In this document: positions 20,733 through 63,784 of the stretch, piece after piece
Position numbering within the stretch: position 1 is the stretch's first letter
How the letters are laid out: each line of letters opens with the position of its first letter
Assembly (NCBI RefSeq): GCF_019090095.1
Contig: NZ_JAGQFP010000002.1
Coordinates: 1,922,001 to 1,986,000 of the forward strand
Direction of reading: 5' to 3'
Origin: Stutzerimonas stutzeri
Lineage (GTDB): Bacteria; Pseudomonadota; Gammaproteobacteria; Pseudomonadales; Pseudomonadaceae
Length of the DNA stretch: 64,000 bases
The notes under the pieces: generated by a model
Told to the model about the DNA's origin: nothing
Databases searched by the model: none
Seen by the model: the letters and a program-made list of their open reading frames with translations, nothing else
Position numbers and translations under genes: made by a program

Positions 20733-21557
20733 ATGGGCAACCTTTCGGTCAACCAGAACAAACTGCAGAAGCGCCTGCGCCGCCTTGCCGGCGAGGCGGT
20801 CACCGATTTCAACATGATCGAAGAGGGCGACAAGGTCATGGTTTGCCTGTCCGGCGGCAAGGACAGCTACACCATGCTCGACGTCCTGCTGTACCTGCAG
20901 AAGGTCGCGCCCATCAAGTTCGAAATCGTCGCGGTCAACATGGACCAGAAGCAGCCGGGCTTCCCCGAGCACGTGCTGCCGGCCTACCTCGAATCGATCG
21001 GCGTCGAGTATCACATCGTCGAGAAGGACACCTACTCGGTGGTCAAGGAGAAGATCCCGGAAGGCAAGACCACCTGTTCGCTGTGCTCGCGCCTGCGTCG
21101 CGGCACGCTCTATACCTTTGCTGACGAAATCGGCGCGACCAAGATGGCCCTAGGGCACCATCGCGACGATATCCTCGAAACCTTCTTCCTCAACATGTTC
21201 TACGGCGGCACGCTCAAGGCCATGCCGCCCAAGCTGCTCTCCGATGATGGCCGTAACGTGGTGATTCGCCCGCTGGCCTATTGCAGCGAAGCCGACATCG
21301 AAGCCTATTCGCAGATGAAGGCATTCCCGATCATCCCCTGCAACCTCTGTGGCTCGCAGGAGAACCTGCAGCGCCAGGTAGTCAAGGAGATGCTGCAGGA
21401 GTGGGAGCGCAAGTCGCCGGGTCGCGTCGAGATCATGTTCCGCGCGCTGCAGAATGTGGTGCCCTCGCAATTGGCTGACCGCAACCTCTTCGACTTCGCC
21501 AGCCTGCGCATCGACAACGATGCCACGCCGCGTTTTGTCGACGTGATGAGCCTGTAA
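20733..21557 (+). CDS. ttcA: tRNA 2-thiocytidine(32) synthetase TtcA
   Basis: TtcA thiolates cytidine 32 of certain tRNAs using ATP and an iron-sulphur cluster. The 274-residue protein has the PP-loop SGGKDS at 40-45, the first pair C115/C118 in CSLC and a second CNLC at 203-206, as in the family. GHHRDD near 141 is conserved. A TAAAAT -10-like hexamer lies about 35 bases before the ATG. The leader of the DAHP synthase begins about 70 bases after its stop. Confidence 0.96.
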
Positions 21558-21576
21558 GGGCAGTGGCAAGCCGAGC

Positions 21577-21605
21577 TTGCGGCTTGCCGCTCGCCACAGT
21601 ATGGT
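21577..21605 (+). promoter_or_regulatory. candidate promoter for the aromatic leader transcript
   Basis: TTGCGG at 21577-21582 is followed 17 bases later by TATGGT at 21600-21605. Transcription would start near 21612, just before the Shine-Dalgarno of the leader ORF. The -35 lies inside a 9-base-pair hairpin (21565-21588) behind ttcA that could also end ttcA transcription. The match is only moderate. Confidence 0.35.
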
Positions 21606-21627
21606 GAATGCCATTCAGGAGTTCGCT

Positions 21628-21756
21628 ATGACCCTCAGCCTCGCTTCCCTTTCTCATGTAAACGCCGGTGCCGTGCGCGCCGCGTCGTTGCGTGGGCAGG
21701 TGATCGCCGCTGACGGTTATTACTTTGGGTATTGGTTTAGCCACAGGCGCGCCTGA
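21628..21756 (+). CDS. aromatic leader peptide (42 aa) of the DAHP synthase attenuator
   Basis: A 42-codon ORF has AGGAG six bases before its ATG. Its codons 31-37 read YYFGYWF (TAT TAC TTT GGG TAT TGG TTT), a dense run of Tyr, Phe and Trp codons near its end. That is the hallmark of leader peptides for aromatic biosynthesis genes. Stalling at these codons when aromatic charged tRNAs are scarce would change the fold of the following RNA. The stop at 21754-21756 lies inside a hairpin (21749-21755 with 21763-21769). That hairpin is mutually exclusive with another (21765-21772 with 21780-21788). A terminator follows 49 bases later. It is too short for ordinary gene finders, and I believe it is real. 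Confidence 0.82.
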   Translation: MTLSLASLSHVNAGAVRAASLRGQVIAADGYYFGYWFSHRRA

Positions 21757-21804
21757 TACCCACAGGCGCCCTAGCAAGCAGGGTCGCCACCAGAGCAGTT
21801 TTCG

Positions 21805-21846
21805 AACCCCCGGTCGGCCACCCGACCGGGGGTTTTGTTTTTTTTG
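21805..21846 (+). terminator. intrinsic terminator/attenuator before the DAHP synthase
   Basis: AACCCCCGGTCGG (21805-21817) pairs perfectly with CCGACCGGGGGTT (21822-21834) around a 4-base loop, then TTTTGTTTTTTTT follows. Its position between the leader peptide and the structural gene makes it the likely attenuator. Confidence 0.9.
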
Positions 21847-21880
21847 GCCTTAACAGGCCACTCGCACCGAGGACAACAGC

Positions 21881-21982
21881 ATGTACCGCTACCGCAACGA
21901 TGACCGCACCTACCACTATGACTGGCGATTTAGCCGCTTCTGTGCCGCCGCACCGACACCCATAGACCGAACACTTCGCTAG
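21881..21982 (+). CDS. second aromatic-rich leader peptide (33 aa), downstream of the terminator
   Basis: A 33-codon ORF starts at ATG 21881 with a strong GAGGA seven bases upstream and stops 45 bases before the DAHP synthase start. Its first 20 codons include four Tyr, one Trp and two Phe (MYRYRN ... YHYDWRFSRF), far above the frequency expected by chance. A hairpin (21989-21994 with 22000-22005) lies between its stop and the synthase Shine-Dalgarno. It may add a second, translational, layer of control. I do not know of a described equivalent; function is inference. Confidence 0.65.
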   Translation: MYRYRNDDRTYHYDWRFSRFCAAAPTPIDRTLR

Positions 21983-22027
21983 CGCCGACGCGGCAGACCG
22001 CCGCGCCGGCCACAGGACCGCCAGATC

Positions 22028-23098
22028 ATGAACGCATCCACTTCCGCTTCCCGTGCCATCGATACCCCCGTTGCCAGCCCTGCCCGACGCAGCGCTCAAC
22101 CCCTGCCCAGCCCCGCCGTCTTGCGCCAGCGCCTGCCTCTTGACGCCATTCTTGCTGACCGCATCCAGACCGATCGCGACGCTATTCGCGCCATCCTCGA
22201 CGGCCGCGACCCGCGCCTGCTGGTCGTGGTCGGACCCTGTTCGCTGCACGATCCGGCCGCTGCGCTTGAATACGCCGAGCGCCTTGCCGAGCTGGCGCCT
22301 CAGGTCGACGATCAATTACTGCTGGTCATGCGCGCTTATGTCGAAAAACCACGCACGACCATCGGCTGGAAAGGGCTGGTCTACGACCCTCATCTCGACG
22401 GTAGCGGCGACATGGCCGAGGGGCTGCACCTGTCGCGGCGGTTGATGCTGGATATTCTCGAGCGTGGCCTGCCGATCGCGACCGAACTGCTCCAGCCGCT
22501 GGCAGCGGGCTATTTCGATGATCTGTTGGGCTGGGCGGCGATCGGCGCACGAACCAGTGAATCGCAGATCCATCGCGAGCTGGTCAGTGGCTTGGATCTG
22601 CCGGTAGGCTTCAAGAACGGCACCGACGGCAGCCTGGGGGTCGCTTGCGATGCCATGCGGTCGGCCGAGCACGCGCATCGTCACTTTGGCATCGATGATC
22701 TCGGCCACCCGGCCCTGTTGCAGACCCGTGGCAACCCGGACGTTCACCTGGTGCTGCGTGGCGGGCACGCCGGCCCGAATCACGATCCGCAAAGCGTTGC
22801 GATCGCGCGGGCCGCATTGCAACGCCAGGGTATCGCGCCGCGGATCATGGTCGATTGCAGTCATGCCAACAGCGGCAAGGACCCGCGCCGCCAGCCGGAC
22901 GTGCTCGACTCGGTGATCGATCAGCGCCTGGCGGGCGAGTCCAGCCTGCGCGGGGTCATGCTCGAAAGCCATCTGTTCGACGGGTGTCAGCCACTGTCCG
23001 GTGAGTTGCGCTATGGCGTATCGGTGACCGATGGCTGCCTGGGCTGGAAGGCTACCGCGCAGGCGCTGCGTCAGGCCGCAGACCGGCTGCGCCGCTAA
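22028..23098 (+). CDS. 3-deoxy-7-phosphoheptulonate (DAHP) synthase, class I
   Basis: This enzyme condenses phosphoenolpyruvate with erythrose 4-phosphate, the first step of the shikimate pathway to Phe, Tyr and Trp. The 356-residue protein carries the class I motifs GPCSLHD, AYVEKPRTTIGWKG, the GFKNGTDG lysine loop, and the metal-binding DCSHANSGK. Length and motif order are those of the aroF/aroG family; which feedback type it is cannot be judged here. The start ATG has AGGA 10 bases ahead. Transcription is probably governed by the aromatic attenuator upstream, so transcript level should respond to aromatic amino-acid supply. Confidence 0.95.
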   Translation: MNASTSASRAIDTPVASPARRSAQPLPSPAVLRQRLPLDAILADRIQTDRDAIRAILDGRDPRLLVVVGPCSLHDPAAALEYAERLAELAPQVDDQLLLVMRAYVEKPRTTIGWKGLVYDPHLDGSGDMAEGLHLSRRLMLDILERGLPIATELLQPLAAGYFDDLLGWAAIGARTSESQIHRELVSGLDLPVGFKNGTDGSLGVACDAMRSAEHAHRHFGIDDLGHPALLQTRGNPDVHLVLRGGHAGPNHDPQSVAIARAALQRQGIAPRIMVDCSHANSGKDPRRQPDVLDSVIDQRLAGESSLRGVMLESHLFDGCQPLSGELRYGVSVTDGCLGWKATAQALRQAADRLRR

Positions 23099-28741: not shown

Positions 28742-28913
28742 GGGCGGGCGTCTTCTCGTCGAGGCTGAACGGGATGGGGCATTGTTGCATTCGAAGGCCA
28801 GAAACGCCTGACGGTTCCGGCAAAATGCCAGTGGTGGTGCTCGCACCCTGCTGTCGGGGCGTTGCGAATGCTCAAGGTTGCGCTGCGCAGAGCCTTCGAC
28901 TACCCTCCGCGCT

Positions 28914-29110
28914 GCTTCAGGTACCGCTGGCTAAACGCCAGGGGTGAAACAGGGAAGCCGGTCCATTCTTTCGAAGACTCCGGCGCTGCCCCCGCAACGG
29001 TAGGCGAGACAGGAACCGCACACAGCCACTGTGCTTCAGGCATGGGAAGGCGCGGTTTCGGGATGCTGCAACGCGTCCGCTCGCAAGCCCGGAGACCGGC
29101 CTGTCGCTTC
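28914..29110 (+). promoter_or_regulatory. cobalamin (B12) riboswitch
   Basis: Conserved core motifs are GGGAAGCCGGT (28952-28962), CTGCCCCCGCAACGGTA near 28986-29002, AGCCACTG (29024-29031) and AAGCCCGGAGACCGGCCT (29085-29102). It precedes btuB. Downstream, TCTCCGTC at 29172-29179 is perfectly complementary to GACGGAGA at 29213-29220, which contains the btuB Shine-Dalgarno. A stable hairpin (29197-29203 with 29209-29215) could compete with that pairing. This points to translational control. The exact boundaries are approximate. Confidence 0.9.
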
Positions 29111-29228
29111 CACGGCAGTGCGGCGGGCGCTGATCGGGGTGCGGCTGCCTGTACCTGCACTCCCTTCGCTTTCTCCGTCTGCCCTTATCGACTGTTGTCG
29201 TGCGGCGGGCACGACGGAGACCTGAACC

Positions 29229-56253: not shown

Positions 56254-56347
<94 letters not shown>

Positions 56348-56452
56348 TGCATCGTTAAGGTTGTGGTTGGTTCCGGCACTTTGGTTTGTGGAAATCACTG
56401 AATTAAAGAGCTTGACCGGCAAATTCACAAACTTATAATGCGCACCCTCAGT

Positions 56453-56529
56453 GCACTCATAGCTCAGCTGGATAGAGTACTCGGCTACGAACCGAGCGGT
56501 CGGAGGTTCGAATCCTCCTGAGTGCGCCA
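56453..56529 (+). tRNA. tRNA-Arg (ACG), first copy
   Basis: The 77-base gene has GCACTCA/TGAGTGC acceptor arms, the anticodon loop CTACGAA (ACG) and encoded CCA. It is identical to the next tRNA. Confidence 0.97.
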
Positions 56530-56599
56530 CTTTAAGCGAGTCACCGAAAGGTAGCTCGTGGCTGTAACCAGCGGTGATCTGGTTTATCAAGCGCCACAT

Positions 56600-56676
56600 G
56601 CACTCATAGCTCAGCTGGATAGAGTACTCGGCTACGAACCGAGCGGTCGGAGGTTCGAATCCTCCTGAGTGCGCCA
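56600..56676 (+). tRNA. tRNA-Arg (ACG), second copy
   Basis: This gene is identical over its 77 bases to the tRNA at 56453-56529, including the anticodon loop CTACGAA. The two are separated by a 70-base spacer and probably lie in one precursor. Confidence 0.97.
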
Positions 56677-63707: not shown

Positions 63708-63784
63708 GTCCCAGTAGCTCAATTGGATAGAGCATCCCCCTCCTAAGGGGAAGGTTGTGAGTTCGAACCTCGCCTGGGACGCCA
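63708..63784 (+). tRNA. tRNA-Arg (CCT)
   Basis: The acceptor pair GTCCCAG/CTGGGAC, anticodon loop CTCCTAA (CCT) and encoded CCA identify the tRNA that reads AGG. Such tRNA genes are frequent integration targets for genomic islands. No integrase is visible in the 216 bases that remain to the edge. Confidence 0.95.

Follow-up and report, generated by a model that had tools for sequence, protein, structure and literature searches.

Two short open reading frames (ORFs) rich in aromatic codons lie in tandem ahead of a DAHP synthase gene in Stutzerimonas stutzeri, within a stretch of 64,000 nucleotides (the window). The first (leader 1) carries a run of Tyr, Phe and Trp codons and is followed by an intrinsic terminator, and the case for reading it as a transcription attenuator is strong. 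The second (uORF2) occupies the interval between the terminator and the gene and likely provides a second aromatic check; with moderate confidence, this check follows attenuation and is probably translational. The combination of attenuation at the first step with uORF2 as a second regulatory leader, by whatever mechanism, is considered highly probable. Sequence comparison further indicates that the RNA terminated at the leader 1 terminator is what was recorded as the small RNA (sRNA) P15. A preliminary description of the region had put forward a leader peptide with attenuation. This part of the account held; the account was incomplete in that the second aromatic ORF and the identity with P15 had been missed. 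The features are listed in Table 1.

Table 1. Features of the DAHP synthase locus (window coordinates; + denotes the forward strand)
Feature	Position	Strand	Remarks
ttcA	20733-21557		Followed by 470 bases before the DAHP synthase gene
Candidate promoter	TTGCGG 21577-21582; TATGGT 21600-21605	+	Spacing 17 bases; putative, read from the sequence
Shine-Dalgarno sequence of leader 1	21617-21621	+	AGGAG
Leader peptide 1	21628-21756	+	42 aa (...ADGYYFGYWFSHRRA); ATG start, TGA stop
P15 (Rfam RF00627)	21714-21832	+	Model 1-119 of 119; 109.7 bits, gathering cut-off 70
Control codons	21718-21738	+	TAT TAC TTT GGG TAT TGG TTT (Tyr Tyr Phe Gly Tyr Trp Phe)
A:B hairpin	21727-21761	+	Core 21727-21732 with 21756-21761; predicted to form without a ribosome
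B:C hairpin	21749-21769	+	21749-21755 with 21763-21769; model, ribosome waiting on the run
C:D hairpin (anti-antiterminator)	21765-21788	+	21765-21772 with 21780-21788
D:E antiterminator	21781-21784 with 21806-21809; 21782-21788 with 21812-21819	+	Two registers; model
E:F intrinsic terminator and T tract	21804-21845	+	Stem 21804-21835, 14 pairs
Shine-Dalgarno sequence of uORF2	21869-21873	+	GAGGA
uORF2	21881-21982	+	33 aa, MYRYRNDDRTYHYDWRFSRFCAAAPTPIDRTLR; between terminator and DAHP synthase
uORF2 Tyr-Asp-Trp-Arg codons paired with DAHP synthase start region	21917-21927 with 22019-22030	+	Model
uORF2 core	21923-21931	+	TGG CGA TTT
Intercistronic hairpin	21984-22010	+	Between uORF2 stop and DAHP synthase Shine-Dalgarno sequence; window's group
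Shine-Dalgarno sequence of DAHP synthase	22014-22017		AGGA
DAHP synthase	22028-23098	+	356 aa; aroFGH type (NCBIfam PRK12755 505 bits; aroFGH 434 bits)

The preliminary description had reported a 42-codon ORF with AGGAG ahead of it, the run YYFGYWF and a terminator before the gene, and all of these were found in place. Residues 1-30 of the window's leader contained no F, Y or W, and across the distinct leaders aromatic residues made up 83 of the 5350 residues before the run. The codon preceding Trp was TAT in 178 and the codon following it TTT in 180 of 183 distinct leaders; the Trp codon (TGG) itself was required by the search expression for leaders. Both TTT and TAT are scarce in the DAHP synthase genes of the Pseudomonas group (4% of Phe codons and 7% of Tyr codons, respectively), and the run is therefore built from rare codons. 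A:B pairing is a further constraint on the Tyr codon of the run; the A:B core does not extend to the Phe codon that follows Trp. The aromatic run recurred at the C-terminus of leader 1 across loci, partly by construction of the search: selection of loci L061-L179 relied on the FGYWFS codon pattern, and the search expression included a Trp codon, so part of the residue invariance is built in.

The strongest test of the role of the codons, as far as sequence can provide one, came from a Halomonas-like family, in which the run turned over with F, Y and W retained. All three residues were kept in 14 of 14 distinct loci (best 9-residue stretch of each), and the orders included FFGFSYWYWF, GYWFGYWF, FWYGYF, SFWYWGYWF, GYGYWGYWF, RFWSYWF, YYAAYWF and FGYGYWF. 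This set had 15 rows, corresponding to the 14 distinct loci (L186 and L233 are the same place); 13 loci were reached via uORF2 (13 of 17 sampled genomes of family f36), with L089 in addition, and 12 were chosen independently of leader 1. Conservation of the leader codons in relatives, which the preliminary description had named as a check, was borne out by the comparison across loci: the aromatic runs were kept, though their order turned over. The features of a leader-peptide attenuator were present, namely a short ORF, a Shine-Dalgarno sequence and a codon run matching the amino acids that the pathway makes.

A stricter consensus promoter scan of the leader region found no promoter and missed the TTGCGG/TATGGT pair. 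TATGGT was the top −10-like hexamer in 28 of 202 upstream regions, and the best promoter score had a mean of 7.4 versus 6.9 in shuffles, a slight excess only. Elsewhere in the window, a cobalamin riboswitch aptamer was located at 28902-29118 (+, 105.3 bits), and four tRNA genes (+) were located at 56254-56673 (a cluster of three) and 63708-63781.

A DAHP synthase gene lay downstream in 232 of the 240 fetched loci. The motif was within about 560 bases of the locus end in the other eight, and the gene was present in 232/232 loci with enough flank. Loci L001-L060 and L203-L231 were obtained with the P15 model, L061-L179 with the codon pattern [FY]FGYWFS (one genome per species, at least 119 stretches), L180-L202 with a looser codon pattern and L232-L249 with a uORF2 pattern. 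Chance matches recognised by reading (L072, L115, L146 and L187-L191) were removed before counting, as was L231, a weak minus-strand second match in genome G084. Some of the 240 loci are duplicates, the same genome being present in two collections, and distinct counts are given where needed; the alignments contained 49, 40 and 34 chosen loci.

Nearly all of the [FY]FGYWFS matches listed belonged to Pseudomonas or Stutzerimonas. The others among those listed were from Halopseudomonas (L101), Alcanivorax sp. DP30 (L099) and Halomonas colorata (L089), together with a Paucimonas metagenome-assembled genome (L097) and Pantoea sp. Ap-967 (L147), both with Pseudomonas-like leaders. Three Bacteroidota matches (L072, L115 and L146) were rejected as leaders and attributed to chance on the basis of their reading frames. 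The looser leader pattern matched 23 of 390 genomes of the order. Seven of these matches were judged real outside the window's family (L180-L185 in family f43, 6 of 17 sampled genomes, and L186 in f36), and L187-L191 were judged chance. From L099 and L089 we infer that f43 is Alcanivorax-like and f36 Halomonas-like.

A crude detector of an aromatic uORF with a Shine-Dalgarno sequence was positive in 206 of 230 loci of this set versus 1 of 31 control DAHP synthase loci (30 taken from the class, plus the second DAHP synthase gene in the genome of the window; 47-52% identical), and it saw two aromatic ORFs in 87 of the 230. The sole control match (L254, MGRWSWRRWWGWPTV..., 211 bases ahead of DAHP synthase) was taken as chance. 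The second DAHP synthase of the window's genome (L280), encoded on another contig, was 50% identical to the window's copy, and the crude detector found no aromatic uORF ahead of it. Four of the f43 loci (L182-L185) kept leader 1 and the terminator, lacked uORF2 and had DAHP synthase close behind the terminator, an arrangement indicating that the two leader modules are separable.

The RNA between the control codons and the gene was divided into segments A (21727-21732, the Gly-Tyr codons), B (21749-21761), C (21763-21772) and D (21780-21788), with E and F as the arms of the terminator. Two exclusive sets of helices can be drawn from these segments, one comprising A:B, C:D and E:F and the other B:C and D:E. 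The two mutually exclusive hairpins with 21765-21769 in common that had been described previously were both present and correspond to B:C and C:D. In the model, the terminator would be blocked by D (21781-21788) pairing with arm E after B captures C.

The predicted fold of 21714-21846 had a free energy of −61.5 kcal/mol (z −5.3), and 0 of 200 shuffles were as good. Set one was paired in 94.7% of cells over 49 chosen sequences versus 36.5-59.6% with slid partners. It contained 13 double-change cells versus 2.1 in shuffles, of which 12 were in the terminator, one in A:B and none in C:D. The terminator helix was paired in 97.4% of cells (49 sequences); its conservation in relatives had also been named as a check in the preliminary description. 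Set two was paired in 87.0% of cells versus 25-67% with slid partners, a slide of +1 or +2 still giving 62-67%; its eight double-change cells (2.3 in shuffles) were all within a single B:C pair. No double changes were found in C:D or D:E in the covariation analysis of the chosen alignments.

The effect of a ribosome on the switch was modelled by folding the ribosome-free RNA ending before F for 190 distinct sequences (three sequences were dropped because the terminator arm was unmatched by the expression, and the wrong segment was taken as C in short-stop leaders such as L070). With the Trp codon in the A site, B:C exceeded 0.5 in 87% of the sequences and D:E in 69%, and with the following Phe codon in the A site these values were 53% and 29%, respectively. 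With the ribosome at the stop codon, C:D exceeded 0.5 in 91% and D:E in 3% of the sequences, and the naked RNA gave 84% and 1%, respectively.

Ribosome positions were then scanned over 61 sequences (the window and 60 random ones) with the stop seven codons after Trp and the ribosome edge at +15 from the first P-site base. Mean D:E was 0.38-0.65 from codon −5 to codon +1 (Trp taken as 0), a span identical with the aromatic run, and at most 0.06 at codons −14 to −6 and +2 to +7. A majority of sequences exceeded 0.5 only at the Tyr before Trp (70%) and at Trp (67%); the Phe after Trp was weak (31%), and register-1 D:E in the window was also weak (0.19-0.49). An edge at +12 moved the permissive codons by one, with Ser included. 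A second scan was done with E three bases longer and with all 168 sequences of this stop distance out of 188 usable ones (five dropped). Here, mean D:E was 0.51-0.81 on the run (55-94% of sequences above 0.5) and 0.06-0.34 on the other sense codons. For the window it was 0.66-0.93 on the run and at most 0.08 from Ser to Ala, with the Gly codon before the run also reaching 0.51. At the stop codon, mean D:E was 0.05 if E ended at GG, but the three-base extension raised it to 0.59 (0.98 in the window) because the ribosome edge touches C; termination may thus require ribosome release.

In the folding model, and in the model only, a ribosome on the control codons freed an antiterminator exclusive with the terminator. 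The predicted switch looks like a six-segment attenuator of the his operon type. Joint sensing of Phe, Tyr and Trp by attenuation, as proposed in the preliminary description, was supported by the comparison and the modelling. Pairing of D with F was rejected as the antiterminator after inspection by eye, being lost where the terminator sequence changes.

P15 has been filed as an sRNA gene since 2006, and its Rfam entry is of the type Gene, as a Pseudomonas sRNA. The model starts four bases 5' of the run and ends within the terminator stem, so that the control codons lie inside it and the start codon and Shine-Dalgarno sequence of the leader outside. Among 58 relatives, P15 was detected in 36, all of them from the genus (37 genomes searched, versus 21 from other genera, none of which matched). 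It was also detected in 244 of 298 genomes of the family (239 above the cut-off) and in 28 of 34 genomes picked for generic diversity (26 above the cut-off). Two loci of genus g28 (L229 and L230) had a diverged P15 under the Rfam cut-off (53.8 and 49.7 bits) and retained the aromatic run YFYAYWFS and, in uORF2, TGGCGATTT. No report linking P15 to attenuation, and none of leader 1 attenuation or of a uORF2 check, was found in searches of open-access papers.

Apart from attenuation, P15 could be a free-standing gene for a trans-acting sRNA, its place ahead of DAHP synthase being incidental. Excerpts of two papers name it as a P. aeruginosa sRNA detected by Livny et al. (PMC2375449, PMC2527527), in keeping with the Rfam type, and an excerpt of PMC7298713 describes trans activity for the leader peptide of an attenuator in Sinorhizobium. 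Against this stand the DAHP synthase gene downstream in every locus with enough flank (232/232), as for a cis element, and a frame with a Shine-Dalgarno sequence that enters the 5' end of the model and whose runs reorder yet stay aromatic; we consider the free-standing gene very unlikely, although P15 may have some function in trans in addition to that in cis. A part of the 2008 article suggests that P15 may be a riboswitch, with reference to its synteny with a TPP riboswitch in Listeria (PMC2527527). However, none of the seven Rfam matches up to an E value of 1 in 21560-22100 was to a riboswitch family, what is conserved is an ORF made of aromatic codons, and the ribosome positions that permit read-through in the model fall on these codons, so that a metabolite riboswitch appears extremely improbable. 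Leader 1 as an attenuator, with P15 as its terminated product, is the reading that we retain.

The core of uORF2 was present in 226 of 232 loci, being missing from L099 and L181-L185; the search expression for it had several variants and was written after reading loci. CGA and TTT were each found in 165 of 166 distinct contexts, both codons being favoured by the expression, and in the Pseudomonas group each was present in 112/112 distinct uORF2 sequences. In the DAHP synthase genes of this group CGA accounts for 4.2% of Arg codons. The mean share of the major codon was 0.92 in uORF2 (13 conserved codons) versus 0.73 in DAHP synthase (169 conserved codons), and this higher fixation indicates selection on the RNA as well. 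Aromatic residues made up 1147 of 3101 residues up to WRF (681 Tyr, 284 Phe and 182 Trp) and 54 of 4927 residues after it (184 distinct peptides). The existence of both ORFs, the conservation of their codons, the gene order and the terminator can be read directly from the compared genomes.

An in-frame CGA was present within the last 15 codons of uORF2 in 226/226 loci and was part of CGA-ACA in 198. CGA-TTT (21926-21931) and the near-stop CGA-ACA (21968-21973) were nearly fixed across loci, and no pairing or motif that explains either was found. A programmed frameshift at the TTT was rejected after inspection by eye: no slippery heptamer was seen, and the −1 frame stop present with AGC was lost where the codon was ACC. 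A local hairpin at TGGCGATTTAGCC as the cause of its conservation was also rejected by eye, being absent in many loci. A search with the uORF2 pattern (Pseudomonas and Halomonas-like form) matched 18 of 390 genomes of the order (13 of f36 and five of the window's family), and the reversed control pattern gave no match in the same 390 genomes. The readable names of 86 uORF2-type database proteins were all hypothetical or uncharacterised, and no Pfam domain was found in these proteins.

The Tyr-Asp-Trp-Arg codons of uORF2 are predicted to pair with a region that includes the DAHP synthase start codon (Table 1). The fold of 21881-22045 was no better than shuffles (z −0.9). In the window's group, true partners paired at −14.2 kcal/mol versus −12.6 kcal/mol for swapped ones (permutation p 0.0005, kinship left in), and the same test was not significant in the Pseudomonas and Halomonas-like groups. 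A ribosome scan of the cost of opening the start covered 24 sequences from the window's group (37 usable), 23 from the Pseudomonas group (27 usable) and all 14 from the Halomonas-like group; the automatic sorting also placed two Pseudomonas-type members (L167 and L179) in the window's group. In the window's group, a ribosome at codons −5 to +6 from Trp lowered the mean cost by 1.3-2.2 kcal/mol, and beyond +6 the mean change was −0.6 to +0.8. In the window itself, the cost fell by 3.4 kcal/mol with the ribosome at Asp and Trp and was raised by up to 4.5 with the ribosome near the end of uORF2. For the Pseudomonas group the effect was weak, about −1 with the ribosome from Trp to Phe, and for the Halomonas-like group it was near zero around Trp. 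On these models, the mechanism appears best supported in the window's group.

Other structures were present between uORF2 and the gene. The intercistronic hairpin of the window's group had eight double-change cells versus 1.8 in shuffles, and the slid control (+2) had 11. In the Pseudomonas and Halomonas-like groups, a stem lies nine bases after TTT, and its loop can pair downstream in the manner of an H-type pseudoknot. This pairing was kept in 94% of cells, with four double-change cells, a number reached by 36 of 500 shuffles; the slid control (+3) outscored it (covariation 0.135 vs 0.081, 13 double-change cells). A GGAG:CTCC pairing was seen by eye in Halomonas-like loci, in several of which the uORF2 stop is a few bases from the DAHP synthase start.

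Opening of the DAHP synthase start by uORF2 is about evenly poised as an explanation. It is quite possible that uORF2 instead acts through translational coupling, protection from Rho or mRNA stability, as would fit the intercistronic hairpin, the pseudoknot-like pairing kept in two groups and the closeness of uORF2 stop and DAHP synthase start in the Halomonas-like loci. Simple coupling, however, would be expected to cut synthesis on starvation, opposite to what a biosynthetic gene needs, and these alternatives leave the start-opening effect in the window's group unexplained. uORF2 is unlikely to code for a functional small protein instead of a leader. The peptide RSGQPAASDRS is conserved in the Pseudomonas group and databases, where they name uORF2, call it a hypothetical protein, but the conserved codons of uORF2 vary less than those of DAHP synthase do, its aromatics end at WRF, most members of the window's group lack the RSGQ part and the core is missing from the six loci given above.

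In the mechanism that we favour, attenuation followed by a check at uORF2, a ribosome on leader 1 would encounter six aromatic codons. A shortage of Phe, Tyr or Trp tRNA would make it wait on the run and mask A, so that B would pair with C. D would then pair with E, the 5' arm of the terminator, and allow RNA polymerase to continue into the gene. When charged tRNA is ample or the leader goes untranslated, A:B and C:D would form, followed by the terminator E:F, and the RNA ending there would be P15. The read-through RNA would bear uORF2, the second aromatic-rich leader, and in the window a ribosome slowed at its Tyr-Asp-Trp-Arg codons would open the DAHP synthase start for translation. The segment switch and the opening of the start are predictions of the folding models, and we infer how the element responds to charged tRNA, and in which direction and how strongly the second step acts.

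Tentatively, and with slightly less than even confidence, we propose that uORF2 represents a new kind of amino-acid-sensing leader. It would be characterised by an aromatic run ending in TGG-CGA-TTT, placed after a terminator and before the gene, with a possible H-type pseudoknot nine bases on in two groups. The same aromatic tRNAs would be read twice, for the fate of RNA polymerase and then for the translation of DAHP synthase, in two Pseudomonadales families and one genome of a third.

The his operon attenuator of enterobacteria switches between A:B, C:D and E:F on the one hand and B:C and D:E on the other. Leader 1 resembles it in having six segments, two exclusive sets of hairpins and a run across segment A. 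In contrast to the single amino acid of the his operon, leader 1 has codons for three, and its gene makes their common precursor. The Rfam His_leader model (RF00514) scored 19.6 bits on 21560-22100, under its cut-off of 49 (E 0.78), and the unrelated rnk_pseudo leader scored higher (27 bits, cut-off 55). In erm-type translation attenuators, which are triggered by antibiotics, a waiting ribosome on the leader frees the start of the next gene. Unlike these, uORF2 would sense charged aromatic tRNA and is located downstream of a transcription attenuator.

Related arrangements have been described ahead of DAHP synthase genes elsewhere, including in Acholeplasma, a member of a different phylum. The excerpt of PMC8632094 describes the uORFC-13-1 motif ahead of aroF in Acholeplasma, where, as here, a predicted uORF and a terminator precede DAHP synthase; it names at least one Phe codon and, in that part, does not describe a tandem leader. 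The aroR-aroF system of Corynebacterium glutamicum is likewise a leader peptide attenuator before DAHP synthase with Phe and Tyr codons, and is reported to respond to limitation of Phe and not of Tyr (Neshat et al. 2014, via an excerpt of PMC11802643). Its run is FYF, and neither Trp nor a second leader is mentioned in that excerpt. For E. coli, the same excerpt describes control by the repressors TyrR and TrpR instead (PMC11802643).

Leader-peptide attenuation itself is known; what is new here is that two leaders occur in tandem and that P15 appears to be the product of an attenuator. Leader 1 and the Rfam family P15 are the same RNA, but the latter is filed as an sRNA gene, and the present analysis gives a likely function to this conserved RNA of Pseudomonas. 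The fixation of uORF2 codons at the RNA level raises the question of successive leaders on a single transcript, and strain engineering might use the element as a pan-aromatic sensor. The findings suggest that, in pseudomonads, the charging of the tRNAs of all three aromatic products together sets the expression of an enzyme at the entry to the shikimate pathway.
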